DNA of 64,000 nt from Chryseotalea sanaruensis (lineage in GTDB: Bacteria; Bacteroidota; Bacteroidia; Cytophagales; Cyclobacteriaceae). Positions 7,715 to 63,279 of the stretch are shown here, piece after piece (the first letter of the stretch is position 1; the number at the start of each line of letters is the position of its first letter). Both the position numbers and the translations under genes were made by a program. Under the pieces are notes generated by a model. It was not told where the DNA came from, did no database searches, and worked only from the letters and a program-made list of their open reading frames with translations. The stretch spans positions 496,001 to 560,000 of the forward strand of contig NZ_BHXQ01000005.1 of assembly GCF_003990915.1 (NCBI RefSeq), in the 5' to 3' direction.

Positions 7715-8938
7715 ATGAAACAAGATTATCGTTCGCTTTACTCGGTTCCTGTTGTTGTAGCTGCACTGGGTTACTTCGTAGATATTTATGACTTACTACT
7801 TTTCAGTATTGTGCGCATCACCAGCTTGCGTAGTCTGGGTGTTGCTGAAGAAAATTTGATGAGTACAGGAGAATTTCTCATTCAAGCACAAATGTTTGGT
7901 TTGTTGATAGGTGGTATTATCTGGGGCATTATGGGCGACAAGCGTGGAAGACTGTCTGTTCTGTTTGGTTCTATTCTATTATACTCATTGGCCAACATTG
8001 GTAATGGCTTTGTTACTACAGTTGATCAATATGCGTTATTGCGTTTTATTGCAGGTATAGGTTTGGCGGGTGAATTAGGTGCCGGTATTACTTTAGTTTC
8101 AGAAGTATTATCGAAAGAGTTACGCGGTTATGGCACCACCATTGTGGCTTCTGTTGGTTTAATGGGTGCAGTGTTGGCCAATATAGTAGCCCGCACATTC
8201 GACTGGCAGATGGCTTACTTTATTGGAGGTGGTTTAGGGCTACTGTTGTTGTTGGCGCGTGTAAGTATTTTTGAATCTGGCATGTATGAAAAGGTAAAAA
8301 CAAAGAATGTAAAGCGTGGTAATTTCCTGCAGCTCTTCACAAACCGGGATCGACTACAGCGCTTCGTGTCTTGCATTTTTATTGGTTTGCCAATCTGGTT
8401 TGTGATTGGTATACTCATCAGCTTTTCGCCTGAGTTTGCTAAAGCGTTGGGTGTTTCAGGCACCATTATAGCGGGTGATGCGGTGATGTTTAGTTACATC
8501 GGGTTGGCAGTGGGCGATTTAAGCAGTGGTTTGATTAGTCAATGGCTGAAGTCGCGTAGAAAAGTAGTGCTGCTCTACATTTTAATTACACTTGTTTTTA
8601 TTGTGCTTTATTTATTCAATCCATCCGATTCGCCTGCCGTATTTTATCTGATCTGCTTCGGTCTTGGTGTAGGCACTGGTTATTGGGCTTTGTTTGTAAC
8701 TATTGCTGCAGAGCAATTCGGCACTAACCTTCGTTCTACTGTTGCCACTTCAGTGCCCAATTTTATCAGAGGTACTGTTGTGCCCTTGGTGGCTTTATTT
8801 AGTTTGTTGCGGCCTCTTTTGGGTATTACCTGGGGCGCTTTTATTGTGGGTTCGTTTACTATTTTAATATCGTTAATAGCTTTAAAATTTTTAAATGAAA
8901 CATTCGCTAGAGATCTTAATTTTTTAGAAGAAGATTAA
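7715..8938 (+). CDS. MFS transporter
   Basis: A GTG at 7667 is possible, but the ATG at 7715 (MKQDYRSLY) fits family starts better and gives about 407 residues. There are about 12 hydrophobic segments and the MFS cytoplasmic loop signature after helix 2 (GDKRGRLSVLFGS). The second half repeats the pattern. A cluster of Gly/Ala in helices 4-5 (GIGLAGELGAGITLVSEVL) resembles the sugar/metabolite porter subgroup. The substrate cannot be read from the sequence. The next gene starts about 30 bp downstream on the same strand and may be co-transcribed. Confidence 0.87.
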   Translation: MKQDYRSLYSVPVVVAALGYFVDIYDLLLFSIVRITSLRSLGVAEENLMSTGEFLIQAQMFGLLIGGIIWGIMGDKRGRLSVLFGSILLYSLANIGNGFVTTVDQYALLRFIAGIGLAGELGAGITLVSEVLSKELRGYGTTIVASVGLMGAVLANIVARTFDWQMAYFIGGGLGLLLLLARVSIFESGMYEKVKTKNVKRGNFLQLFTNRDRLQRFVSCIFIGLPIWFVIGILISFSPEFAKALGVSGTIIAGDAVMFSYIGLAVGDLSSGLISQWLKSRRKVVLLYILITLVFIVLYLFNPSDSPAVFYLICFGLGVGTGYWALFVTIAAEQFGTNLRSTVATSVPNFIRGTVVPLVALFSLLRPLLGITWGAFIVGSFTILISLIALKFLNETFARDLNFLEED

Positions 8939-8967
8939 GTAGTAAATTGAGTAAACGAGAACAGGAG

Positions 8968-10551
8968 ATGATGGCATGGACCCCGGCTAAAATTTTCCCA
9001 AGAACTTACCGGTTCTTTCTGGCGCAATACAGTGCCACGCTCGATCCTGATTTTACCCGGGCACGACTTCTGTTAAACTTTATTTTCATTACTTCTATCA
9101 TCAGTATTATATTCTTTATTACATATCAGTTTTTTAACACAAATATTCCGACATATATTTATTTAGTTACACCACTTTTTTTATTCTTCATTGCTTTTTT
9201 GCTACGCACTAAAATTAGTCTTGATGTGCTGTCCAATATTCTGCTGACTTTCTATTGGATTGTTTTTTCTATTGGTGTCTATTTTTCAGGAGGTATACAT
9301 TCGGTGGTTTTACCATGGCTTACATTACTGCCTTTTATGGCTAATGTGTTTAATAATTATACTAATGCGATTGTTTGGTTTGGAATAATTGCAGCAACGG
9401 TTTTGCTTTATGCATTGCAGAATGCTCATATACCAGCTGTTGCTTTTTCAGAAGATCCATGGCGACCACTGATATCGTACACAGGGTTGGCATCTTTGCT
9501 TTTTTTCTTCACTACTTTTTATCATAATACTCAAACTCGGTTTATCAGTTTGCTTAAAGAGCGAAATTATATGCTGGCCGAAAACCAAGATGAATTACAA
9601 ACACAGAATGAGGCATTAAAGAAACAAAGAGATGTTATTGAACTTCAGCAGGAACAAATTAAGCAGATTAATGAGCAACTGCGGGATAAACTTAACGAGA
9701 TAGAAAGTATAAATGATGTGTTGGAAGAACAGCGCGAAATATTAATGCATTTAACAAAGTGCAGGTGGATTAAAGAAGGCGAGTTGCAGGGTGCACTTAA
9801 GGAAGTAGCCTTGTTGGCATCAAAAGCAATGGGGATTACACAGGTAACTGTATGGCGGGTAAATGATAAACAAGACAGATTAGAGGCTATTATGAGTTAC
9901 AACGCCCTCTCTAGTCAATTTTCGTCAGGTATTAGTTTTGAAGTGGCGGGTTATCAGCTTTATTACGAGGTTTTATATGCTGAAAAAATTGTAGCAGTTG
10001 AAGATGTTTTTTTACATGACCTCACCCGCCATAATGTGGTAGACTATTTCATTCCGCAGAATATTAAATCATGCATGGATGTGCCATATTATATTGGTGG
10101 AAACCTTGGTGGTACTGTAAGTTTTGAAAATCATCAGGAAACAAGGAAGTGGACAAGTCAGGATAAGAATTTTGCAAAAGCGTTAGCAGATATTGTAACC
10201 TTGGCTATTGAATCTGCGTGGAGACGTGAGTACGAAGAGAAAATACGGGAACAGAATGAGACTATTTCGCAAATAAATAAAGGACTAGAAGACCGTGTGC
10301 GAAAACGCACTGAGGAATTGGAGCTCCAGAATGAGAAATTGGCCGAGTATGCTTTCATTAACTCTCATGTACTCCGTGGACCGCTCAGCCGCATGCTTGG
10401 GCTTATTCACCTGATGGAAATGACAGATAAAAAGGACTTGCAACTTATTGACTACCTTAAGAAATCAGGTGAGGAGCTAGATGAAGTGGTAAAAAAAATT
10501 AACACAACTTTAGCTGAGCGGACTGACTTAGGACGTAAAGATTTTCGGTAA
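8968..10551 (+). CDS. Membrane GAF protein with HisKA-type H-box but no ATPase domain
   Basis: About 527 residues from the ATG at 8968; a TTG at 8947 is the longest alternative. Six hydrophobic helices (about 30-190) are followed by a coiled coil (about 195-265), a GAF domain (about 275-420), a second coil, and a phosphoacceptor-type segment containing SHVLRGPLSRMLG, with the candidate His near residue 467. The chain stops about 60 residues later, so the catalytic HATPase domain of a histidine kinase is missing. The family pattern suggests a sensor that dimerises with, or is phosphorylated by, another kinase. The complete kinase gene starts 9 bp downstream. The signal bound by the GAF domain is unknown. 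Confidence 0.85.
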   Translation: MMAWTPAKIFPRTYRFFLAQYSATLDPDFTRARLLLNFIFITSIISIIFFITYQFFNTNIPTYIYLVTPLFLFFIAFLLRTKISLDVLSNILLTFYWIVFSIGVYFSGGIHSVVLPWLTLLPFMANVFNNYTNAIVWFGIIAATVLLYALQNAHIPAVAFSEDPWRPLISYTGLASLLFFFTTFYHNTQTRFISLLKERNYMLAENQDELQTQNEALKKQRDVIELQQEQIKQINEQLRDKLNEIESINDVLEEQREILMHLTKCRWIKEGELQGALKEVALLASKAMGITQVTVWRVNDKQDRLEAIMSYNALSSQFSSGISFEVAGYQLYYEVLYAEKIVAVEDVFLHDLTRHNVVDYFIPQNIKSCMDVPYYIGGNLGGTVSFENHQETRKWTSQDKNFAKALADIVTLAIESAWRREYEEKIREQNETISQINKGLEDRVRKRTEELELQNEKLAEYAFINSHVLRGPLSRMLGLIHLMEMTDKKDLQLIDYLKKSGEELDEVVKKINTTLAERTDLGRKDFR

Positions 10552-12658: not shown

Positions 12659-13567
12659 TTAAATCTTAAAATGATATCCGATGCTAACTAGGACTGGAGA
12701 AGGGGCAGAGATGTCAATGCCAGGATTGTTTTGCAAGGCCTTTATATCATTTTGAAATGAAGCAGATCGAAAAGGAATGACTAACTCAAGATGAATATAA
12801 TTATCATCACTGTTTCTTGTTTTATTCTCAAAACCAACCGCAACTGATGGCCCATAATATGTTTTGTCATATTGTGATGCACCAATCACTTTTATAACAC
12901 CATTGTAACCATACATAGCGGAAATTGTCGGCACCAATCTTTGTTGACCTAAACGCAGATTTAGGCCTGCATTAAAACCAAGGCCGTTTAAGGCATAGCC
13001 AGCGGCAACAAAAATTCCTACCGAAGTCTTCTCTGCATCACCCGGAATAAAAGTCAATCGACCACCAACTCCACCATAATCAAGGCCGAGACCCAGTCCT
13101 AAATGTAAACTCACATCATTTATTTCATTATAATCTTCTGTAATTGTACCATCTTCTTCCGACTCAGCTTCACTTTTTTGAATAGTTGGTTCTAACGGTT
13201 TATTAACCAATGCAGGATTTACCACTTGAGTGATGCTTTGTCGCGTGGTGTCAGGTGTAGAGATTGCCTCTTTTTCCTTAACAAACTTTTCCTGCCCTAT
13301 GTAGACTACAATATTTTCTTTTAATAAATTTTCGATTAATGCAAGATCCACAACTTTTTTATCCTGCGTTTGAAATTGGACGACAGCAATAAGATTAAGT
13401 GAGAGCGCACCTTCTTTAACAATAAGTAAGTTATCGCTGATGGTTTTAATTTCTGTAGATACACGGGCACTATCTTTCATTGTAATCAAGGCCTGCTGAC
13501 CTTGTACAGCGAAACAGCACCCTAATATAATTAGCAGCACAGCGAACTTTCCTACGATTTTATGCAT
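12659..13567 (-). CDS. Exported outer membrane beta-barrel-like protein
   Basis: The frame is open to 13714, but the ATG at 13567 starts directly before a signal peptide (MHKIVGKFAVLLIILGCC, cleavage after VQGQ), and the upstream part overlaps the cyclophilin gene. The product is about 302 residues. After a region of about 120 residues with alternating charged stretches, the C-terminal half has repeated beta strands with the glycine and aromatic pattern of a small barrel, ending IGYHFKI as barrels of this phylum often do. The function is unknown. It lies 31 bp downstream of the cyclophilin gene on the same strand. Confidence 0.8.
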   Translation of the reverse strand: MHKIVGKFAVLLIILGCCFAVQGQQALITMKDSARVSTEIKTISDNLLIVKEGALSLNLIAVVQFQTQDKKVVDLALIENLLKENIVVYIGQEKFVKEKEAISTPDTTRQSITQVVNPALVNKPLEPTIQKSEAESEEDGTITEDYNEINDVSLHLGLGLGLDYGGVGGRLTFIPGDAEKTSVGIFVAAGYALNGLGFNAGLNLRLGQQRLVPTISAMYGYNGVIKVIGASQYDKTYYGPSVAVGFENKTRNSDDNYIHLELVIPFRSASFQNDIKALQNNPGIDISAPSPVLVSIGYHFKI

Positions 13568-13598
13568 AAATATTAAGTGATCTGTATGTTGTGCTTTC

Positions 13599-14474
13599 TT
13601 ACTTCTTTTTTTCCTCTTTAGGATATTCGTATCCGTATAGCTTGGTGATTTTCTTCTTCGATAATTCCTCAACAGTAACAAACATACGGACGTCTTCTTT
13701 TGGTCTATTAGCACGATTGCGTTCTAAGGCGGCTATCTTATCAATTACTTCCAATCCTTTAATTACTTTTCCAAATACAGTATACTCATCATCCAAATGA
13801 GGTGATCCTCCGGTTGTAGTATATGCTTTCAACCGCTCAGAAGCCATTGGCTTATTTAATTTAAGACCAGTTTCTTTTTCAATTCGAGGAGCCAGTGCAT
13901 TGATGCATGCCTGATATGCATTCTGATCGGTCTGGTATAATTGAACTAAAGAATCGTACAAAGGCTTGTTCTCTGGTTTTGAAATTAGCTGTCGTATACC
14001 CATGCCCAGTTTCTCCTGGTCAATCAGTAAGTCGCTTTCTTTCCAGACTTGACCATGAACTATATAAAATTGTGAGCCATTAGAGGCACGTTTCGGATTC
14101 TGCTTATCCTCTTGACGCGCTGCTGACAGTGATCCTTTTTCATGAAACAAGGAAGGAACAAACTCTGCGGGCAAGGTATAGCCTGGACTACCCGTACCTA
14201 TAGGTTGCCCTGCATTGGCTTTTTTCGAATTAGGATCACCGCCCTGAATCATAAAATTAGGGATTACACGATGAAATAATAAACTGTCGAAATACTTTTC
14301 TTTAGCAAGTTTGATAAAATTCTCTTTGTGCTTGGGAGTCTCGTCATATAGAATAGCAACCATATCACCATAATTGGTTTTAATAGTCACAACATAATCT
14401 GTTTTTTTTGACTGAGCACATCCTAATAAAAAAGCAAATGATAAAAACAGGGAGAAAAAAGTTACACGATTCAT
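13599..14474 (-). CDS. Cyclophilin-type peptidyl-prolyl isomerase lipoprotein
   Basis: 291 residues. Lipoprotein signal ending LLGC (Cys near 19). The cyclophilin fold is clear: FHRVIPNFMIQGGDP, GSQFYIVHG and FGKVIKGLEVIDKI. Compared with compact cyclophilins there is an insertion of about 75 residues between the active-site strands (near 130-205), with helical character. It probably isomerises X-Pro bonds during folding in the periplasm; the lipid anchor is inferred. Start ATG at 14474. The 156 bp upstream hold only a weak 6-bp hairpin (14537-14566). Confidence 0.93.
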   Translation of the reverse strand: MNRVTFFSLFLSFAFLLGCAQSKKTDYVVTIKTNYGDMVAILYDETPKHKENFIKLAKEKYFDSLLFHRVIPNFMIQGGDPNSKKANAGQPIGTGSPGYTLPAEFVPSLFHEKGSLSAARQEDKQNPKRASNGSQFYIVHGQVWKESDLLIDQEKLGMGIRQLISKPENKPLYDSLVQLYQTDQNAYQACINALAPRIEKETGLKLNKPMASERLKAYTTTGGSPHLDDEYTVFGKVIKGLEVIDKIAALERNRANRPKEDVRMFVTVEELSKKKITKLYGYEYPKEEKKK

Positions 14475-54039: not shown

Positions 54040-54248
54040 ACCAGCCCAGCGCTGTTCAAAATTTCATTTAGCTCCTACAATAGATAGTTTTATTCAAGAC
54101 TGATTTTTATCTTGATAAAGTAACTAAATCTCGTTAACTTTTTTACAAACATGTAAGTTTTGAATTTTCTTATTATTTTCAGGTGCAGGAGTCTAAAAAT
54201 CAATTAAATATTGCGTTAAATACTTATTCATTAAAAGCAATCTTAACA

Positions 54249-55085
54249 ATGAGATATTATTTCTATTTGATATTTATTTTAATGTCATGCTCAACATCAG
54301 GACAAGAAACAAACAAAATCAGTGAAAGCAGCCTTACTGATGACGAAATAACAAAAAGATATTTAGAAAAAGGTGCATGGACTTTAAGATATTTTTCACC
54401 AGAATATCAGTCATATCTTGATTCTGCAATACATGAAAATCCAAATATTGCATACTACTACCAACAAAAGGCTATGCCTTATTTCAAATTAGGAAAATAT
54501 GAAGTGGGGCTTAAAATTCTAGAAAAAGCAGTTGAACTTGATCCTAAGAGTTATATTGATTACAAGGCGTTTATACAATGTATCTTTCAAAAAAATTATC
54601 AAAATGCTTTAGAGAGCTTTATCACCGCAAAGAAAATAAAGGGAGTCAATGGATACGTCATGGATCATTCTTATGATTTTTATATTGGTCTGTGCTACTT
54701 GCAGCTGAATGAATTTGAAAAGGCAGTTAAATATTTTGAAGCAAGTATTAGCGAAATGCTTAAATCTAATAGTGAGAGTTGGGTACATCACTTGGATCTA
54801 CTTTATGCAGGTATCGCTTTTCAAGAATTAAATAATCATGAAATGGCGATTAAGTACTTTGATAGGGCATTAAAGAAATATCCCAATTTCTCAGATGTAA
54901 AATATTACAAGTCAATATCACTGTTTAGACTAGGCTTATTAGAGGTTGCGGATGAATTATTAAATTCATGTGAATTGGATTTTAAAAGGGGTTTCACTAT
55001 AAATGAAGACAATGCCATTTACGAAAAGTATCCCTATCAAATAAAACAATTTTATATTGATATGCTTAGATTAACTAAAAGATAA
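54249..55085 (+). CDS. TPR-repeat lipoprotein
   Basis: 278 residues from the ATG at 54249 (MRYYFYLIFILMSC); a GTG at 54183 adds non-conserved residues. Lipobox LMSC with the cysteine near 14. TPR repeats cover about 60-250 (AYYYQQKAMPYFKLGKYEVG, then KYFDRALKKYPNFSDVKYYK). It is anchored in the envelope and probably binds another protein. It lies outside the peptide locus, 298 bp from its 3' end, and shares no obvious role with it. Confidence 0.85.
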   Translation: MRYYFYLIFILMSCSTSGQETNKISESSLTDDEITKRYLEKGAWTLRYFSPEYQSYLDSAIHENPNIAYYYQQKAMPYFKLGKYEVGLKILEKAVELDPKSYIDYKAFIQCIFQKNYQNALESFITAKKIKGVNGYVMDHSYDFYIGLCYLQLNEFEKAVKYFEASISEMLKSNSESWVHHLDLLYAGIAFQELNNHEMAIKYFDRALKKYPNFSDVKYYKSISLFRLGLLEVADELLNSCELDFKRGFTINEDNAIYEKYPYQIKQFYIDMLRLTKR

Positions 55086-55383
55086 TATCAGTCCTTAGCT
55101 ATCTTCTGATTTATTTAGATAATGTACTGAAAAATGGTAGGTGACTTTTTTTTAATCCCTTTGCTATAAGAAATCATTCTGGTCATTTATGACTTAAAAA
55201 ACTCACAGTTAAGCGTTTATGATTTTTATATAGTATCGAATTCGAAGAATAAAAAAGTTTAGTGAAATACATTCCACTAAAATTCTTAAAATGTTATTCA
55301 ACTAATTGATTTCCAAATACTTTTTCACTAACCCACCAACCATTTTTCAGTAATATGCCTTTATTTAAATTTAATACATCTAA

Positions 55384-56673
55384 TCATCTGGATGATAGAT
55401 TTTTCTTAAAGCTATAAAATATTCTTTCAGCTAGGGTCAAATCTTCTGTGATAATCTCAGCAGTTGCGAGCATCCCATCCTTTAAGGTAATGTCCTTAAC
55501 CTTGCTATTTCTCAAATTTTCCCTCAATGATACCGTTGCATAGAAAAAATCTTTATTCGATTTACTGAATTCTGCAATGGAAGAAATTGAACCTTCCATT
55601 GTTCCGAATTCTTCATACGGATAACCATGCAGTTTAATTATTACTCTTTGTCCTATTTGTACTTTTCCAAAATTATTTTGAGGGATATTAATTTCACCGA
55701 AAAAAGAACTTGAAGAAGGACCTACATAAAATACCTCGGAATTGATAGTCAAGTATTGGCTTTCCTGAAGTATTCCTGAAAAGTGTATAATTCCATTTGA
55801 CGGAGAGACTAACAAAAATTCTTTTCTCCATGCCACAATAGAACTCACTAAAGAATTCAGAGATTGTTTAAATTTTTCAGTGTCCTCAAAAAGATTTCTT
55901 TCTAAGTCTAATAACTCACCTTGTTTTTTAAGTATCAATGAATTGTTATTTATTATAAGCATTTCCAAATTTTTCAAAGGTATCTTTTTTGCTAATGACT
56001 TACTCTCTTCCCTATCAATATCCATAGATGTAATCACCTTCTCATTGTATAATTTTTGATTAATCAAAAATTCATTAGATGCGAGTTCAGAATCACGTTT
56101 GAATAGTTGCCCCTGTTCTTCAAGAGTTCGCTTCATTTTATTCAATTCATTTAAATCCGCTAACAAAATATTTCGTTGTGACTCATAAAACTTGTCACTA
56201 TATAGAAGAATCACTTTGGTATAGTGTTGTTGAAATTCCTGATATAGCATTTGAATTTCACCCAATGATTTAAAATCAGCAAGTCTATTTTCACTGAATT
56301 TATTAAATTCATTTCTAAAAAATAACTCGCTAATAACACTCAATTCTTTCTCAAGATCCAAGATTTCTTGGTGATTAGCTGAACTCTCAACCCAGCCAAG
56401 TATTTGTCCTTTTAAAACGACTTCAGACTCCTTTACAAATAATTTTTCTAGTCTTCCGTTGGATCTAACAATTACGGGCTTGATACTAACTTTAGATGTA
56501 AGTCTAAAATCAGATTTTACAATTGTAGGATATTGTATTAGTATAGTTAGGGCTGAAATTAAAATAAATATTGCTGCAATAACATAAGTGCCAATGCGAA
56601 TTATCACACGAGGCATTTTCTCTAGATAATCTCTTACTGCCTCACTTCTATTATCTGATTCAAACTCTTCCAT
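55384..56673 (-). CDS. HlyD-family secretion adaptor of the peptide exporter
   Basis: 429 residues. N-terminal transmembrane helix (about 27-50), a biotinyl-lipoyl-like segment (IVRSNGRLEKLFVKESEVVL), long coiled-coil hairpin (about 100-260), a second lipoyl half (VSPSNGIIHFSGILQ), and a beta-barrel domain with GQRVIIKLHGYPYEEFG. It links the inner membrane C39 ABC exporter to an outer membrane channel; no TolC-like gene is in the window. It begins directly after the stop of the exporter gene. The frame stays open 29 codons past its TGA, down to a TAA at 55294. Confidence 0.93.
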   Translation of the reverse strand: MEEFESDNRSEAVRDYLEKMPRVIIRIGTYVIAAIFILISALTILIQYPTIVKSDFRLTSKVSIKPVIVRSNGRLEKLFVKESEVVLKGQILGWVESSANHQEILDLEKELSVISELFFRNEFNKFSENRLADFKSLGEIQMLYQEFQQHYTKVILLYSDKFYESQRNILLADLNELNKMKRTLEEQGQLFKRDSELASNEFLINQKLYNEKVITSMDIDREESKSLAKKIPLKNLEMLIINNNSLILKKQGELLDLERNLFEDTEKFKQSLNSLVSSIVAWRKEFLLVSPSNGIIHFSGILQESQYLTINSEVFYVGPSSSSFFGEINIPQNNFGKVQIGQRVIIKLHGYPYEEFGTMEGSISSIAEFSKSNKDFFYATVSLRENLRNSKVKDITLKDGMLATAEIITEDLTLAERIFYSFKKNLSSR

Positions 56674-58875
56674 TTAGTTTCCTAATTCTAATTGATTTTT
56701 CACTAAAGCGTAGTAATATCCTCTTTTTAAAACCAATTCTTCATGATTTCCTGTTTCAACTATTTCCCCTCTATTTAGAACAATTATCTTATCTGCTTTT
56801 TTTACAGTGCTCAATCTGTGTGCAATGACCACAACTGTTCTTTTTTGAAAATACGATTCTAGATTATTCATAATCACAGCTTCATTCGTAGCGTCAAGGG
56901 CACTAGTTGCTTCATCAAAAAGTAAAAAATCGGGATTTTTATAGACAGCGCGAGCTATTAAAATCCTCTGCTTCTGACCACCGCTTATCCCCACTCCACT
57001 AGAACCAATTCTCGTATTATAACCCATTGGAAGATTTTCTATAAAATCTCCCAAATTAGCAATTTGAATTGCTAATTTGAGCTTTTGATAATCTATAACT
57101 CCGTTTGAATCTGATTCACTAATATTTCTAGAAATAGAATCCGAGAAAATATAGCCATCTTGCATAACAACACCACAATTACTTCTCCAAAATTTTGAGC
57201 CAAAATTTTTCAAGTTATTACTTGAAATGAAAATATTGCCTAAAGTTGGTTCGTAAAATTTTAAAAGAAGTTTTAAGAGTGTGGTCTTACCGCTTCCACT
57301 AGAACCAACGATTGCCGTAACTTTGCTTGCTGGTATAGTGAAACTAATATTTTTCAACACTAATTCAGAGGCAGTGCTTCCGTATCGAAAACTAACGCTA
57401 TCGAACTCAATTGATTTGTCATTAGGCAATTCGCTAATTGTTTCCTCATTGGGTTCCTCATTCTTTTTTTCATGTATTTCCTTTAGCCGCGCAATGCTCA
57501 GTCGGGCATCTTGATAACTGCGAACAAAAAAAATAAAATTGTTTATCGGGACATTCATTTGACCGATTATATATTGAACAGATAGCATTCCCCCAAATGT
57601 TAGTTGACCGTCAATCACACTTTTAGCAGCTATAAAACTTATAACAATGTTCTTTATTTCATTAATAAAACGACCACCCTCATTTTGTGATTGCGAGAGG
57701 GCTAAACTTTTAATGTTTAACTTAAAAAGTCTTGCTTGAATTGCTTCCCACTCCCATCGTCTCCTTTTTTCTGATCCATTCAATTTAATCTCCTGCATTC
57801 CGTTAATGAGTTGAATAGTGCTACTTTGATTCCCGGAAGCTTGGTCAAAATATCTATAGTCTATAAGCTCTCTTTTTTTCATGAATAATAATACCCATAT
57901 AATATAAATTAATGACCCAATAAAAAATATTAAAAAAAGTGAAAGATTAAAGTACCATAGAATACCAGCAAAAATTATAAAAGGAAAAAGAGAAAAGATC
58001 GTATCTAAAGTAGCAGCAGATAAAAACGCTTGTATACGATTATGGTCCTGAATTCGCTGAAGGAGATCTCCATTATTTTTAGAATCGAAAAATGAAACTG
58101 GTAGATTCATTAATTTTATCAAGAAATCTGATAACATCCTTAAATTCATTCTGCTTGTGATGTGAAGCAACAGCCAGCTTCGAATCACGCTAATAGATGT
58201 TTGAGACAAAAACAATATCAGCTGTGCTATAAGCATCAAATAGATAAAATTTACATTTTTGGTATTAATGCCTGTATCTACTATTTGCTGAGTTATAAAT
58301 GGAAACGTTAGTTGAAGTAAACTCCCAACCATTAACCCTATTACTATAGGGGTGCTATAATTTTTGAATGGCCGAAAATACTTTGTAATAAAATTAGGCA
58401 GTGCTCTATCTGTTTCTATCCTATCCTCTTGTTGATCGAAAAGTGGCGTGGTTTCTAATAATAGTAAAATACCCTCTGAATTTTCGTTTGGTTTTTTTTC
58501 TGGAATCCAACCTTGAATAAATTCACTTACCGAGTATGATATTAAGCCGTGGGCTGGATCAGCAATAAGGATTTTCTTTTCAGTCGCTTCATAAATAACT
58601 ACAAAATGTCTTTGGCGCCAGTGTGCAATACATGGGAGCGGAATTTTTTCGACCAAATCATTATAAGTGGTATTTAAAGCTAAGGTGCTAAAACCGATTT
58701 TCTCAGCAGCATCTGACAATCCCCCAAGCGAACTTCCATCCCTAGCGAGATTACATATACTCCGCAGATAACCAATATCAAAATAGCGTCCATAATATTT
58801 ACTAATCATTTGTAGACATGTTGGTCCACAGTCCATTTGATCCAATTGCCTAAAAAAAGGAAGCTTTTTTTTCAT
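56674..58875 (-). CDS. C39 peptidase-containing ABC transporter (bacteriocin-type PCAT)
   Basis: 733 residues. The N-terminal C39 peptidase domain (about 1-130) has the catalytic Cys16 in QMDCGPTC, His90 in RHFVVIY and Asp106 in IADPAHG, all intact. Six transmembrane helices (about 170-430) and an ATPase with Walker A VGSSGSGKTTL, signature GVGISGGQKQR, Walker B/LFDEATSALD and the switch His in VIAHRLST follow. Such proteins cut leader peptides after Gly-Gly and export the core. The neighbouring precursor has just such a leader. Its stop directly abuts the start of the HlyD gene. Confidence 0.95.
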   Translation of the reverse strand: MKKKLPFFRQLDQMDCGPTCLQMISKYYGRYFDIGYLRSICNLARDGSSLGGLSDAAEKIGFSTLALNTTYNDLVEKIPLPCIAHWRQRHFVVIYEATEKKILIADPAHGLISYSVSEFIQGWIPEKKPNENSEGILLLLETTPLFDQQEDRIETDRALPNFITKYFRPFKNYSTPIVIGLMVGSLLQLTFPFITQQIVDTGINTKNVNFIYLMLIAQLILFLSQTSISVIRSWLLLHITSRMNLRMLSDFLIKLMNLPVSFFDSKNNGDLLQRIQDHNRIQAFLSAATLDTIFSLFPFIIFAGILWYFNLSLFLIFFIGSLIYIIWVLLFMKKRELIDYRYFDQASGNQSSTIQLINGMQEIKLNGSEKRRRWEWEAIQARLFKLNIKSLALSQSQNEGGRFINEIKNIVISFIAAKSVIDGQLTFGGMLSVQYIIGQMNVPINNFIFFVRSYQDARLSIARLKEIHEKKNEEPNEETISELPNDKSIEFDSVSFRYGSTASELVLKNISFTIPASKVTAIVGSSGSGKTTLLKLLLKFYEPTLGNIFISSNNLKNFGSKFWRSNCGVVMQDGYIFSDSISRNISESDSNGVIDYQKLKLAIQIANLGDFIENLPMGYNTRIGSSGVGISGGQKQRILIARAVYKNPDFLLFDEATSALDATNEAVIMNNLESYFQKRTVVVIAHRLSTVKKADKIIVLNRGEIVETGNHEELVLKRGYYYALVKNQLELGN

Positions 58876-58889
58876 ATTAAAATGGGAAC

Positions 58890-60389
58890 TTACTTAATCA
58901 ATGAATCCTTAAGGTCATTTAATAAACCAAAGTTTTTTTGTCCTTTAAGCGGCCAAGAAGTATAAATTTTATCAACCTTTAATTTTTCTTTTAGAATCAA
59001 ATCATAAACAGACTTGCCTCGTTGACCAGAAAATGGAGTTTTTTGATTCATTGGGAAGGACATTAAATCACCAACAAAAAGAATTTTTTCGTTCGGGAAA
59101 TAATAGACCAGATACTCCTTTGTGTGTTCTGTATCACCAACTTCATACACAATAGATTCATTAAATGAGTCGGAATATTTTCTATGACTCCCTTGTGGAA
59201 TAATTTCATATTTTATATCTGGTTTGTTTGAAATGTATTCATAAGAATTTGATAAGGAATGGGTATTGCTAAAAATATTTGAAAAATAGTCTACATTTCC
59301 TGTTGTCGTGATTACATTAATTTCATTAAACCATCTTAGTCCTCCTGCATGATCGGGATGGTGATGACTGACAAAGATATTCTTTAGCTTTTTATTAGGA
59401 TTTATATCTTGTAGTTCAGAAATTATTGCTTGATGAGTTTCAAATCCTTTTGGTAATTCATAAATGTCAAAATGGAGCTTATTCTCAGCTATAATTACCT
59501 TATTGTTTAGAGTATTAAGTTTAAGTAGGTACAGATTTTTCCCAATCTTTTCTCTTGAAACACCTGATGGTTTATGCTGTACTAATGTATCCAACCTAAA
59601 CTCAGAATCTAATTCGCTGATTAGATTATTTTTTGCAGGATAAACTTTAAAATCAGAAATTGATAATCTTTTTTCGATTTGCCCATACTCTTTATCAATT
59701 CTTTCAGATGGCACCCATAAATTTTCAAGTTGATGATATCCATGGAATTCAGTGGTAACAATATAATCTCCATATAAGTCGCTATATTTTAGTTCATCAA
59801 TCTTAGTAAGCAGGAATTTTGAGTCAAGAGAAATTTTAAAATGATTGCCACTTTTGTCGTTAAATGAAACAACTTTTAATGTATCTGAACTAAAGCATAA
59901 TGACAACGTATTCCTATGCTCATAAGCAAATTTTAGAAATTTTGAAGGTAAAGATTTTTGAACTTGATTAATCAATTGATCTCTACTCTGTTTACCCAAT
60001 TTTTGTTTGTCGGCCTGAAAATAATCTTTAACGATAACACTATCACTTTTGTAAAAAGTCAAATTTCGATAAGTGTTTCCATACATGACAATTTCTTTGC
60101 TTGAAAAAACACACTGTTCATTTTCATAAAAGAAATTAGCTTCGTTAATACCAAACTCCCGTCTCTCATAAGGAATTGTATAATGGCCTAGATTAAACAT
60201 TATACCATTGGCCTTAAATGAAACAGGAACACTTATAGATTTGTGCCCCCCATAGGTATCAATTGACTTCATCAAAATGCCCAAGGCGTCTTGATAGTTT
60301 CCATAATGATCAAACCCATTTTGGCATTTTACTGAAGACGGTATAACAAAAAAAAGTATACCTATCACTACTAATTGTATATTTTTCAT
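58890..60389 (-). CDS. Exported metallo-beta-lactamase-fold protein in the peptide locus
   Basis: 499 residues from the ATG at 60389 (MKNIQLVVIGILFFVI, signal peptide to about SSVKC); the longer frame overlaps the hydroxylase gene. The first about 280 mature residues form a beta-rich domain resembling LolA/LppX-like sorting proteins. The C-terminal half is an MBL hydrolase: FVSHHHPDHAGGLRWF, then the HTKEYLVYYF and FVGDLMSFP segments with metal ligands. Its stop is 14 bp before the exporter start. Possible roles are late tailoring of the peptide outside the cytoplasm or self-protection; neither is shown. Confidence 0.82.
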   Translation of the reverse strand: MKNIQLVVIGILFFVIPSSVKCQNGFDHYGNYQDALGILMKSIDTYGGHKSISVPVSFKANGIMFNLGHYTIPYERREFGINEANFFYENEQCVFSSKEIVMYGNTYRNLTFYKSDSVIVKDYFQADKQKLGKQSRDQLINQVQKSLPSKFLKFAYEHRNTLSLCFSSDTLKVVSFNDKSGNHFKISLDSKFLLTKIDELKYSDLYGDYIVTTEFHGYHQLENLWVPSERIDKEYGQIEKRLSISDFKVYPAKNNLISELDSEFRLDTLVQHKPSGVSREKIGKNLYLLKLNTLNNKVIIAENKLHFDIYELPKGFETHQAIISELQDINPNKKLKNIFVSHHHPDHAGGLRWFNEINVITTTGNVDYFSNIFSNTHSLSNSYEYISNKPDIKYEIIPQGSHRKYSDSFNESIVYEVGDTEHTKEYLVYYFPNEKILFVGDLMSFPMNQKTPFSGQRGKSVYDLILKEKLKVDKIYTSWPLKGQKNFGLLNDLKDSLIK

Positions 60390-60390
60390 T

Positions 60391-61581
60391 TTAAATAGTT
60401 TCAAATTTACTAATAGGATTAAGCTGATTAAAGAAATCATAACTAAACACATATGGAGATCCTTCAAAATTCATAAGAATCAGTTTGTCATTATATTTAT
60501 CATTAATATAGTCGTATCCATCTTTAAATTTTTTAATAAATTTCAACCCCTCACTCGTAAATATTTGATCATTGTCCAGTGATTTGAGATCACTGCCGAA
60601 TTTTTTTGTGTAGAATCCTATTCTACCAATAATCTCGTGTCTTTGCTTAACATCGAATTGGAAGCCGCTTAATGCTTTGTCTAAAAAGAATAGAATCGTT
60701 GTATAAGTAAATAGACCGTGAAAAGCCCCATAAATTGTTCGGCCTTCTCTTTTTTCCGAAATAAATTCTCTGAGAAATGTTTCTTTTGGAACTTTTAAAT
60801 ATTCCGTAGTCTGTAATGTAAGTGCATTGAATACAACATGGCCACATTGGTGGGCGAGGTCGTCAATAAAAAAGACTTCATCATGTGCCAGGCCCTCTGT
60901 ATTTATGAATGCTGTACCATGGTAGGAAATCGCAGCCATAGAATAAATATTTGGGCTGCTCATAATTGAAATTTCACGGACTGTATTGATTAGTAGTTCG
61001 GTAAACTCAGGGGATATTTTTTTCATCATCACGAACGCATTCTCAATGTGATTAAGGTGGCGTGTTAGAGTGTGGTCAGCAGATTCATTAAATCTTACCA
61101 TTTCACCATCTAATGATAACTGTGAAATTAGAAATGAGTGATGCTTACAAAGGCGTATTGAAGTTCCATTTATAAATGAATCTGTAGTCAATTTTGAAAT
61201 CTGATCTTTTATTCTTAATTCTTTGCTATTAAAATCCCACACTATCTTCACTTGTTGAGAAGGCTCACTATGCAAGTAGCCAATATTCGGTAAATTAATA
61301 AACCCAAATTGATCAGAGCGTGCTTCAAACTCCTTTGGTCTTAAAGATGGCTCTATGTAACCAAAAACGGATTGTTCCAATGTTGATGTTGTAAGATTTT
61401 TACTTTCTGCTAAAAAAAAATAGAATAGGGTTGGCTCAAGAAATGCTAAATCATTGTCATAGGCTAATTTATCAAACAATAGAGGATTTTGCTTATAGAA
61501 AAGTACCCTAATAGTATCTGCAAGTTCAGCTTGATTATTAAAAACCAAATTTTTATCTATTTCAAAGTTCAGAAGTTTCAT
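60391..61581 (-). CDS. HExxH-type peptide hydroxylase-like protein with HQCGH
   Basis: 396 residues. In the middle lies FFIDDLAHQCGHVVFNAL with His244, Gln245 and His248 (HQxxH), and about 40 residues later GAFHGLFTY with His288, followed by a hydrophobic helix. This spacing and the LHG-like third site match my memory of the HExxH putative peptide modification family (TIGR04267), some members of which are 2-oxoglutarate-dependent peptide beta-hydroxylases. The usual Glu is Gln here. The N-terminal half is alpha-helical and not otherwise known. It is first of the operon after the precursor terminator; 1 bp separates it from the MBL gene. Confidence 0.7.
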   Translation of the reverse strand: MKLLNFEIDKNLVFNNQAELADTIRVLFYKQNPLLFDKLAYDNDLAFLEPTLFYFFLAESKNLTTSTLEQSVFGYIEPSLRPKEFEARSDQFGFINLPNIGYLHSEPSQQVKIVWDFNSKELRIKDQISKLTTDSFINGTSIRLCKHHSFLISQLSLDGEMVRFNESADHTLTRHLNHIENAFVMMKKISPEFTELLINTVREISIMSSPNIYSMAAISYHGTAFINTEGLAHDEVFFIDDLAHQCGHVVFNALTLQTTEYLKVPKETFLREFISEKREGRTIYGAFHGLFTYTTILFFLDKALSGFQFDVKQRHEIIGRIGFYTKKFGSDLKSLDNDQIFTSEGLKFIKKFKDGYDYINDKYNDKLILMNFEGSPYVFSYDFFNQLNPISKFETI

Positions 61582-61677
61582 TTTGTTTTAAATCGAAGTT
61601 GATGTGTATATGGATGAGGCTTTATGCGTTATTGAATTTATATTTCTGATGGCCTCTAAGATTTGGCACATTTTGAT

Positions 61678-61707
61678 AAAAAAAGGGCTGCCATTTGTTG
61701 ACAGCCC
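61678..61707 (-). terminator. Terminator between the precursor and the biosynthetic genes
   Basis: On the minus strand GGGCTG and CAGCCC form a 6-bp stem (61702-61707 and 61685-61690), followed by a run of seven T (61684-61678). It lies 37 bp past the precursor stop and would end most transcripts there, so that precursor mRNA exceeds that of the enzymes. Confidence 0.75.
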
Positions 61708-61744
61708 AATGGACTTATTCAAAGTATGAATTAAATCCCTTTGA

Positions 61745-61921
61745 TTAATGAGGGTGACAGGTTGTTGGAGTAGTTGGAGTTGTTATGATAACCGTTCCTT
61801 TTGGTAAAAGCTGATGACAATCAGCTAGTTCGCCTCCTTTAATGGCTTCGATGTTTGCGACAAAATTCGAAGAATCAACTTTTGCCTTTAAGTCTGCAAG
61901 ACTCATTTTTTTGTTTTCCAT
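61745..61921 (-). CDS. Precursor peptide with double-glycine leader
   Basis: 58 residues from the ATG at 61921 (MENKKMSLADLKAKV); the internal ATG at 61906 would give 53. Leader of 30 residues ending VANIEAIKGG, the double-glycine type recognised by C39 peptidases. The predicted 28-residue core begins ELADCHQLLPKG and ends PTTPTTCHPH: two Cys (35 and 55), each followed by His, and four Pro. A 24-residue upstream frame extension is not used. It faces the P4H gene across a 200-bp divergent regulatory region. Similarity to known RiPP classes is not evident to me. Confidence 0.82.
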   Translation of the reverse strand: MENKKMSLADLKAKVDSSNFVANIEAIKGGELADCHQLLPKGTVIITTPTTPTTCHPH

Positions 61922-61992
61922 AACTGCACTTGAGTTAATTTTTAAAAATTGATGATACCCAAGAACCATTGTTAGATTACTTATCGTCATCA

Positions 61993-62035
61993 AAGTAAAC
62001 TTCTAAAAAAAAGTTTGCTTCACAAAATTTTTGTG
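61993..62035. promoter_or_regulatory. Dyads in the divergent promoter region of the peptide locus
   Basis: AAGTAAACTT (61993-62002) and AAGTTTGCTT (62011-62020) are a near-perfect inverted repeat, directly followed by the perfect palindrome CACAAAA-T-TTTTGTG (62021-62035). They lie between the precursor and the P4H gene and are the best candidate regulator sites. A -7-like TATATTTG is on the minus strand at 62070-62063, but no -33 was found for it. Confidence 0.5.
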
Positions 62036-62125
62036 GGAAAACTATTTACTTTTACCGTTAACCAAATATAAATTGTTTAAACTGAACGAAAATTAAAAGA
62101 ACTTCTCATTTGATTTATTGAACCT

Positions 62126-63154
62126 ATGCACCCTATCCTTAAAGACCCTGCCGATGTAATTTTTAATACAACAGTTTTAACTGTGGAACACCTAATTGAG
62201 AAATTGGATGTTAAAGTTACCAAAATGACTATAAGGAATGAATTATTTGATTGTGCAAGCTATCCTGTCATACCATTGGATTATTTATGCAAAATGCTTG
62301 AAGGATGGGGGATTTCAAGCATTGTTCTAAAAGCTAACATAGAAATTTTGAAATCTGTAAATCTGCCAGCAATAGCTTATTTACCAGGTAATCTTGAAGG
62401 TTTAGGAGTATTTATTGTAGTTGTCGGAATAAGTGATGACTTTGTATCATATTATTTAGCTGGTTCTGGAGTTCAAACTGAGTCATTAAAAGAGTTTGAA
62501 GAGCGCTGGACAGAGGGGGTTTTAGTTCCTTTAGAGGTTTCTTTAAATCAATCTGGTGAGGAGTTGTACCTTGAGAATAAAGAAATCGAAAATAGTCTAA
62601 AAAATATCTATAAAGGCTCAGTAAGAATTATTGACAATTTTATATCAAATGAAGATTGTGATTTTATAATTGACTATTGTGATTCGAACGAATTATTTGC
62701 TAGGAGTAAAGTTGACATAGCAAATGGACAAGATGATATTGTACATCCAGTAAGAACTAGTTATAGTGCATTAATTGAAGATAGAAATATCTCAGCACTA
62801 AATAATTTGTATTCTAAGGTTTCTCAATTTACTGGGTCATTAGTAAATAATATTGAGAATATTCAATGCGTTAGATATGGCCCTGGTGAACAATTTGGAG
62901 TTCACTTTGATAGTGATATAACAAACAGAAGATTATATACACTTTTAATTTACCTTAATGACAACTACCAAGCGGGAGAAACATATTTTCCTGAAATAGA
63001 TCTTAAGATTACCCCAAAAAAAGGTCGTTGCTTGATGTTTAGAAATGTTGATGAAAGCTATAATAAAATATTACATTCAGTTCACTCTGGTCTCCCAACA
63101 ACAAGCGGGGTGAAGTATGCCTGCAATATCTGGGTCAGATACCCTAAACCTTAG
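62126..63154 (+). CDS. Inactive C39-like domain fused to prolyl 4-hydroxylase
   Basis: 342 residues. The N-terminal about 140 residues resemble C39-like domains (FDCASYPVIPLDYLCKML, then LPAIAYLPGNLEGLGVFIVV, then EERWTEGVLVPLEV) but lack the catalytic Cys at the QxxDC position. The C-terminal about 180 residues are a 2-oxoglutarate/Fe(II) oxygenase of the prolyl 4-hydroxylase type: VHFDSD (His260, Asp262), and HSGLPTTSGVK (His320, Lys330) for iron and 2-oxoglutarate. A dead C39 domain can still bind a Gly-Gly leader, so this is likely a leader-guided hydroxylase for the precursor on the other strand. The coupling is inferred. Confidence 0.88.
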   Translation: MHPILKDPADVIFNTTVLTVEHLIEKLDVKVTKMTIRNELFDCASYPVIPLDYLCKMLEGWGISSIVLKANIEILKSVNLPAIAYLPGNLEGLGVFIVVVGISDDFVSYYLAGSGVQTESLKEFEERWTEGVLVPLEVSLNQSGEELYLENKEIENSLKNIYKGSVRIIDNFISNEDCDFIIDYCDSNELFARSKVDIANGQDDIVHPVRTSYSALIEDRNISALNNLYSKVSQFTGSLVNNIENIQCVRYGPGEQFGVHFDSDITNRRLYTLLIYLNDNYQAGETYFPEIDLKITPKKGRCLMFRNVDESYNKILHSVHSGLPTTSGVKYACNIWVRYPKP

Positions 63155-63226
63155 GATTACCATATTTTTTTCATTCAAAGTTTTGGATGTGTAATTTTAT
63201 TAGTATACCGATCAATATTAACAAAC

Positions 63227-63262
63227 AAAAGCCACGAGCAGTTTTAACTACCCGTGGCTTTT
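63227..63262. terminator. Two-way terminator between the P4H and M16 genes
   Basis: Perfect 10-bp stem AAAAGCCACG and CGTGGCTTTT with a 16-nt loop. It has a T-run on both strands and lies between convergent genes, so it probably stops transcription from both sides. Confidence 0.8.
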
Positions 63263-63279
63263 AAAATTGTTACTAACTT

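Follow-up and report, generated by a model that had tools for sequence, protein, structure and literature searches.

A Gly-Gly peptide locus of Chryseotalea sanaruensis pairs a divergent relative of the HExxH hydroxylases with a Cys-His core motif and carries a C39-like/P4H fusion

Enzymes of the aKG-HExxH hydroxylase family (TIGR04267; ChlBH, PflC/PosC and BpmH/BipH) act in the biosynthesis of ribosomally synthesised and post-translationally modified peptides (RiPPs). According to the available text of PMC12636437, ChlBH hydroxylates Asp and His and PflC/PosC hydroxylate Gln in RiPP precursors, the enzymes can cut the peptide backbone, and oxidations besides hydroxylation are also performed; the accessible part of PMC12707348 assigns to BipH a hydroxylation in biphenomycin biosynthesis. 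Here we describe a divergent relative of these enzymes, the HQxxH protein, and the Gly-Gly peptide locus encoding it in Chryseotalea sanaruensis (Bacteroidota; Cyclobacteriaceae). The locus lies in a 64,000 nucleotide stretch of contig NZ_BHXQ01000005.1 (positions 496,001 to 560,000, assembly GCF_003990915.1), the whole of which we call the window. Like the described hydroxylases, the HQxxH protein belongs to a RiPP-type locus, and its HxxxH motif plus the His of FHG can be aligned with theirs. It differs in the motif itself (HQxxH in 17 of 18 family members), in scoring under the curated family cut-off and in its partners. A Gly-Gly leader and a C39 peptidase-ATP-binding cassette (ABC) exporter (PCAT) are found here, whereas, as far as the available descriptions go, ChlBH is a radical SAM (rSAM) fusion associated with a cyclophane, PflC goes with a nitrile hydratase leader peptide (NHLP)-type leader, and bpm has partners of the MNIO, RiPP recognition element (RRE) and B12-rSAM kinds.

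Other described systems bear upon a second protein of the locus, in which a C39-like domain is fused to an oxygenase domain of the prolyl 4-hydroxylase (P4H) kind. The C39-like domains (CLDs) of HlyB-type ABC proteins of type I secretion also score as C39 by Pfam and have lost the catalytic residues, but the window domain is fused to a 2-oxoglutarate (2OG) oxygenase and not to a transporter. P4H-like 2OG-Fe(II) oxygenases (PF13640) share the above-cut-off match and the HxD...H plus Lys residues, whereas the window protein has a dead C39 domain at its N-terminus and is encoded beside a Gly-Gly precursor. A graspetide-like locus of Xanthomonas sp. AmX2 (L004) likewise combines a fusion, a PCAT, HlyD and a Gly-Gly precursor; unlike the window it has an ATP-grasp of the MvdC/D type, a DUF6817 protein and another 2OG-oxygenase-like gene, and no HQxxH protein was found there by BLAST. 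A graspetide survey (PMC8939145) includes members from Xanthomonas that have a Gly-Gly peptidase; the words 'hydroxylase' and 'oxygenase' are absent from the available part of its text. Lastly, the Gly-Gly RiPPs of Bacteroidota (rSAM-modified TIGR04149 and others) likewise combine a short Gly-Gly leader with a PCAT. However, the window precursor matches no NCBIfam family at E<=1, TIGR04149 included (2 of 11 precursor relatives touch that model, best E 0.089), and no rSAM family is among the matches listed for the island proteins, in agreement with the sequence-only reading of this DNA that preceded our work. In the literature, with subscription papers mostly outside coverage, we found no description of a C39-like/P4H fusion or of HQxxH enzymes with GG-x4-CH peptides.

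The HQxxH gene is accompanied across its family by one short motif in the precursor. In 17 of 20 HQxxH loci a Gly-Gly precursor reads GG-x4-CH, placing Cys-His at core positions 5-6, and the cores are otherwise unlike. The window precursor has the leader MENKKMSLADLKAKVDSSNFVANIEAIKGG and the core ELADCHQLLPKGTVIITTPTTPTTCHPH, which is Thr-rich with two Cys. When 11 precursors were aligned, the only invariant columns after GG were the Cys and His of the motif. The loci were located via HQxxH or exporter proteins and never via core sequence. The motif was first recorded as DCH, and the exact rule was set once the window, L021 and seven others had been read; all eight GG-x4-CH-type loci read thereafter fit it (L055, L057, L120-L122 and L182-L184). 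L182-L184 come from another bacterial family and supply five precursors. One of these three (L184:7838-9824, minus strand) is a decaying locus with HQxxH fragments and a shortened HlyD, in which a precursor with GGTENACH is still legible.

The sample was assembled from profile searches for the HQxxH protein (2, 5 and 14 rows, in overlapping genome samples), which matched 4/120 genomes (one genus), 14/390 (order) and 5/360 (phylum); an exporter search added three loci. Two weak matches, G684 (3e-9) and G874 (7e-6), were dropped, the stretches around them reading without a Gly-Gly precursor or exporter. The 20 loci are the window, L021, L028, L029, L030, L047-L053, L054 with L055, L057, L120-L122 and L182-L184. 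Gene counts over the 20 loci are lower bounds, since the contigs of L028 and L057 are short, the reading frame is broken in L053, L054 and L055 each lie at the end of a contig and L184 is a remnant.

As a control we took 37 exporter loci without HQxxH, working down the exporter score list and not at random; some are close kin, and three sit in genomes holding an HQxxH locus elsewhere. At least one candidate precursor was present in 27 of them, giving 47 candidates, of which 1 contains GG-x4-CH and 5 contain CH anywhere. Comparison of 14/14, from 14 of the GG-x4-CH-type loci, with this control yields a Fisher p of 7e-13 per precursor (1/47) and 4e-10 per locus; kinship among loci is uncorrected, and therefore these values overstate the case. 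The detector used for Gly-Gly precursors overlooked that of L021, which was found by eye, and took one L120 ORF resembling ribosomal protein L7/L12; on the detector alone these 14 loci score 13/14 against the same 1/47. Among 390 genomes, a leader-only profile gave 11 matches with E no higher than 2.1e-10, each of them in a genome with HQxxH; the next match (0.0024) was again in an HQxxH genome, and with weaker ones up to 0.1 the total reaches 33. Those 11 were themselves the sequences used to build the profile, and the only conclusion to draw is that additional close leaders lacking HQxxH are absent from the sample. The company that the HQxxH enzyme keeps with the same Cys-His pair hints at the site where it may act.

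Within the HQxxH protein itself, the three His at ligand positions (H244, H248 and H288, window numbering) and R320 are invariant in 16/16 full-length proteins. Residue 245 is Gln in 15 of these and Glu in one (G453); two partial proteins bring the Gln count to the 17/18 given above. TIGR04267 was matched at E<=1 by all five family members scanned (best E 5.7e-9), and hhalign aligned HQCGH...AFHG with HEMAH...LFHG of a canonical member, L160 (E 5e-6, probability 86). Taken together, the conservation, the family matches and the alignment suggest that the HQxxH protein is probably HExxH-like in its working, as the sequence-only reading had proposed, yet it falls outside TIGR04267 as presently defined. 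A PDB sequence search with a five-row HQxxH profile returned one chance-level match (E 1.5), IMG/VR gave no confirmed HQxxH relative, and plasmid sequences gave no match to the window protein. In one relative (L182:8686-10335, minus strand) the motif is HEGSH and the protein is fused to a domain that is TonB-like by eye and that other loci encode as a small gene of its own.

The fusion scores as a P4H-like oxygenase, with PF13640 over cut-off and HxD...H...K in place, and H260, D262, H320 and K330 are common to it and its Xanthomonas homologue. Alignment with active C39 domains leaves the window fusion without Cys and without His at the catalytic places; the N-terminal domain is therefore a C39-like domain and no peptidase. 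One further fusion of the same domain order was found, that of L004, 33% identical in alignment. Its C39 match is 19.7 bits, just under the PF03412 cut-off of 22, and its C39-like domain retains the Cys and has Glu in place of the catalytic His. It starts within ~80 bases after a 57-aa Gly-Gly peptide with the core DGDGIPTLPPVSTTPKTDGVGPQPGPV, 7 of whose 27 residues are Pro. The tripeptide TTP is present in both fusion-neighbouring cores and in 0/65 other cores. Of the L004 neighbours, the ATP-grasp is over cut-off for PF21068 and under the cut-offs of the NCBIfam ATP-grasp models, and the other 2OG-oxygenase-like gene is just under its cut-off; these two genes, DUF6817 and an unmatched 199-aa protein precede the proline-rich precursor (L004:6668-9517, plus strand).

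A search of 395 phylum genomes for the fusion (E<=1e-5) gave a full-length match in the window's own genome only. Plasmid matches came from 16 records, each covering <80% of the fusion; of the four whose surroundings were read, the plasmid proteins of L017 and L018, at 217-218 aa, are too short and were ruled out as fusions. IMG/VR contained one match to the oxygenase domain. Among side observations, on a Methylomagnum plasmid (L019:1638-8597, plus strand) a RiPP gene annotated as Cys-every-fifth and two radical SAM maturases are followed by an annotated 2OG-Fe(II) oxygenase. L022 has a stand-alone C39-like ORF near Gly-Gly peptide genes, 29% identical over 155 aa. This 177-aa ORF (L022:9759-10292, minus strand) is without catalytic Cys and His and overlaps an ORF (8635-9786, minus strand) that is VKOR-thioredoxin-like by eye, with two Gly-Gly precursors, a PCAT and HlyD nearby. 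It is another dead C39 domain, here beside a possible tailoring enzyme.

All seven genes lie within a single insertion (Table 1), which we take as a recent horizontal acquisition whose borders enclose the tetratricopeptide repeat (TPR) gene and the fusion. In two genomes of the same genus the flanking genes, named by eye, are separated by 54 bp (L174) and 74 bp (L175), the island being absent at that place; in two further genomes of the genus (L176 and L177) the M16-like gene does not adjoin the LON-like gene. The HQxxH protein has no match in four other genomes of the genus and is matched in 2/146 relatives, a count that includes the window's own genome. The AT-richness that the sequence-only reading remarked upon is borne out, G+C being 31.8% in 54040-63200 vs 39.0% in the remaining window. 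None of the repeats of >=18 nt around the island was judged an insertion repeat, and the promoter pattern TTTG/TAnnTTTG has 0 sites in the island and a window count not above chance. On the minus strand the order of transcription is precursor, HQxxH protein, metallo-beta-lactamase (MBL)-fold protein, C39-ABC exporter and HlyD; on the plus strand, the fusion diverges from the precursor and the TPR gene converges with HlyD. That earlier reading had listed six of these genes, each of which is open where it placed them, and left out the TPR gene.

Table 1. Features of the island, in window coordinates
Feature	Position	Strand	Basis
Acquired island	54040..63279	.	Between LON-domain-like gene (end 54039) and M16-peptidase-like gene (from 63280, minus strand)
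TPR protein	54183..55085	+	TPR families over cut-off; lipoprotein-like N-terminus by eye
HlyD-type membrane fusion protein	55384..56673	-	PF13437 39.6 bits (cut-off 22.2)
C39 peptidase-ABC exporter (PCAT)	56674..58875	-	PF03412, PF00664 and PF00005 over cut-off
MBL-fold protein, putative accessory hydrolase	58890..60389	-	PF00753 43.6 bits (cut-off 22.7); C-terminal metallo-beta-lactamase domain (HHHPDH)
HQxxH protein	60391..61581	-	Motif HQCGH; divergent relative of aKG-HExxH peptide hydroxylases
Precursor peptide	61745..61921	-	58 codons; leader 1-30 ending Gly-Gly, core 31-58
Codons of core Cys35-His36 (GG-x4-CH)	61814..61819	-	Invariant columns of precursor alignment
C39-like/P4H fusion	62126..63154	+	PF03412 28.9 bits (cut-off 22); PF13640 52.8 bits (cut-off 27)
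C39-like domain of fusion	62279..62527	+	Residues 52-134 match PF03412; catalytic Cys and His absent
2OG-Fe(II) oxygenase domain of fusion	62864..63139	+	Residues 247-338; H260, D262, H320, K330

The exporter is intact, as previously read, with Cys, His and Asp at the places of the C39 triad; together with the Gly-Gly leader this points to a PCAT-exported Gly-Gly peptide. Its identity to the exporters found in other HQxxH loci is 52-70% (67-70% for six), compared with 43-55% for 37 checked exporters of HQxxH-free loci. Homologues of the MBL protein, whose signal peptide was judged by eye, occur in 9/20 HQxxH loci including the window, and an amidohydrolase-family protein takes the place of MBL in L051 (PF01979) and L057 (by BLAST). 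The HHHPDH motif of the MBL protein we take to be general-hydrolase-like. A resistance-type beta-lactamase was rejected, the NCBIfam subclass B1 models matching weakly and far under their cut-offs. TPR homologues are likewise found in 9/20 loci including the window, and all of these but the window also have the small TonB-like protein (by eye), which in L182 is the one fused to the HQxxH protein; the TPR protein is predicted to be accessory, possibly with a role in immunity. A family of 365-416 aa proteins, exported by eye, also recurs near HQxxH precursors (L047:8258-9424, L053:5867-6964 and 13089-14339, L055:10668-11816, L057:2192-3334); the L047 copy was scanned and has no Pfam or NCBIfam match.

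Other tailoring genes accompany HQxxH homologues elsewhere. LanB and LanC genes share the locus in L021 and a LanB gene in L030, methyltransferase-like genes (by eye) occur in L028-L030, L182 and L183, and L050 has a ThiF-family gene, which lies with an alpha/beta-hydrolase gene between the precursor and the HQxxH gene (L050:1341-3105, plus strand). L030 also has an aldo-keto-reductase-like gene. The proposal that the peptide is hydroxylated rather than crosslinked or dehydrated may thus fit the window locus and does not extend to the HQxxH family, given the LanB/LanC and methyltransferase-like neighbours.

We propose, at a probability of about 0.55, that the island makes and exports a RiPP that is oxidised at Cys-His by the HQxxH protein, hydroxylated at prolines by the fusion, and cut and exported by the PCAT. 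The gene set, the insertion, the family relations by sequence, the association of GG-x4-CH with HQxxH and the second fusion beside another Gly-Gly precursor are observed; we infer every chemical step, the leader binding, the order of steps and the roles of the MBL and TPR proteins. The 58-aa precursor would be made with its Gly-Gly leader. The HQxxH protein would be a metal/2-oxoglutarate oxygenase of the HExxH kind, with Gln replacing the protease-type Glu, and would oxidise the core at Cys-His, residues five and six past the cut site, most likely by beta-hydroxylation at or next to His36. Type I secretion systems use dead C39-like domains to recruit their export substrates (available part of PMC6363468), and by analogy we infer that the dead domain of the fusion is a module gripping the Gly-Gly leader. 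The fusion would then hydroxylate the prolines of TTPTTPTT, in the C-terminal half of the core. The C39-ABC exporter would cleave after Gly-Gly and export the core together with HlyD, with the exported MBL and TPR proteins as accessories in processing or immunity. By these comparisons, what stays constant is the pairing of the HQxxH protein with the CH core, to which the fusion is an addition. An oxygenase-tailored Gly-Gly peptide, as first read, is the best reading and is partly supported: it appears right in kind, with oxygenase superfamilies recognisable by sequence and HQxxH paired with the Gly-Gly CH precursor, but it misplaced the constant part, as the two oxygenases form no fixed pair.

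Several observations weigh against this scheme or limit it. The window HQxxH protein matches TIGR04267 at E 0.0087 and 16.1 bits, under the curated cut-off of 40, and the Glu of the HExxH motif is missing from its HQCGH. R281, invariant in the first 14 proteins, is absent in 2/16 once G453 and G441 are added. Structure prediction was too poor for a fold search, both by AlphaFold2 on the single HQxxH sequence (pLDDT, the predicted local distance difference test, 33) and for the fusion from two sequences (pLDDT 50). The remaining 3 of the 20 loci (L028, L029 and L030) have CH at the precursor C-terminus, ending DCH, DCHD or DCHE, and in L029 it is absent from 1/3 candidate precursors; L139 is the exporter locus that bears GG-x4-CH without HQxxH. 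The Cys-His pair could serve leader cutting, metal binding or activity, and not be the modified site. The window core, with 4 Pro in 28 residues, is matched or exceeded by 5/65 other cores and is unexceptional. Finally, the fusion was seen in 1/20 HQxxH loci and not in the other 19, some of which run off the end of a contig. Precursors of the family do therefore occur without one of the enzymes, which for the fusion is the very case that the sequence-only reading had named as its own refutation.

That the fusion was not seen in 19 loci also raises the question of whether it concerns the window precursor at all, or serves another protein substrate or is an island passenger. It is encoded on the strand opposite the operon, and in 7/20 loci the divergent spot beside the precursor is taken by a helix-turn-helix-type gene (by eye, related by BLAST). 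Against this, it lies within the same insertion and adjoins the precursor, the sole other fusion likewise comes straight after a Gly-Gly precursor whose core is rich in proline, and C39-like domains elsewhere recruit export substrates (PMC6363468, in the part available); we regard an unrelated fusion as rather unlikely. It is quite improbable, in our view, that the HQxxH protein acts as a metallopeptidase or as a partner of the leader or exporter, with CH serving the finished peptide, for instance in metal binding. The motif Glu is the usual catalytic base of zincin proteases, so that a change to Gln would remove it, and the low score to the hydroxylase model could be read in the same sense; but the three ligand-position His and R320 are kept in 16/16 proteins, one relative keeps HE, and the link is to a core motif, beyond the leader alone.

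If the HQxxH enzyme does act on Cys-His, it might do so by an oxidation other than hydroxylation, giving a Cys-His crosslink, a heterocycle or an oxidative backbone cut. Cys and His are both invariant and adjacent, and the available text of PMC12636437 describes oxidative backbone cleavage by the HExxH enzymes PflC/PosC and cites a 2OG enzyme for a Cys-Tyr crosslink. The same text, however, has the characterised aKG enzymes of RiPP biosynthesis largely hydroxylating, and a crosslink between neighbouring residues would be strained, leaving such chemistry a somewhat unlikely outcome. A lanthipeptide-type cluster with its dehydratase supplied in trans would suit the Thr-rich core with two Cys and the LanB/LanC neighbours of L021 and L030. 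Yet the dehydratase family PF04738 gave 0 matches in the window genome, a 38-contig draft, while the identical search returned 4 for each of G116 and G631; this largely refutes the idea, makes it very improbable and agrees with the earlier remark that no lanthipeptide synthetase is present.

Beyond the single locus, we raise tentatively, as a possibility at rather less than even odds, a joint proposal. Dead C39 domains may be portable recognition modules for Gly-Gly leaders on tailoring oxygenases, in the role that an RRE plays for other RiPP enzymes, one leader thereby serving modification, cutting and export; and HQxxH with GG-x4-CH may form an undescribed Bacteroidota RiPP family with a dedicated Cys-His modification, possibly beyond simple hydroxylation. 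The exchange of Glu for Gln in the HExxH motif bears on the choice of an enzyme between peptide hydrolysis and oxidation, both of which PflC shows (PMC12636437, available text). Should leader binding by the dead C39 domain hold true, Gly-Gly leaders would gain a recognition module that is movable between tailoring enzymes and of use to peptide engineers. Moreover, linking an enzyme family to a two-residue core motif names the likely site of its reaction ahead of the chemistry.

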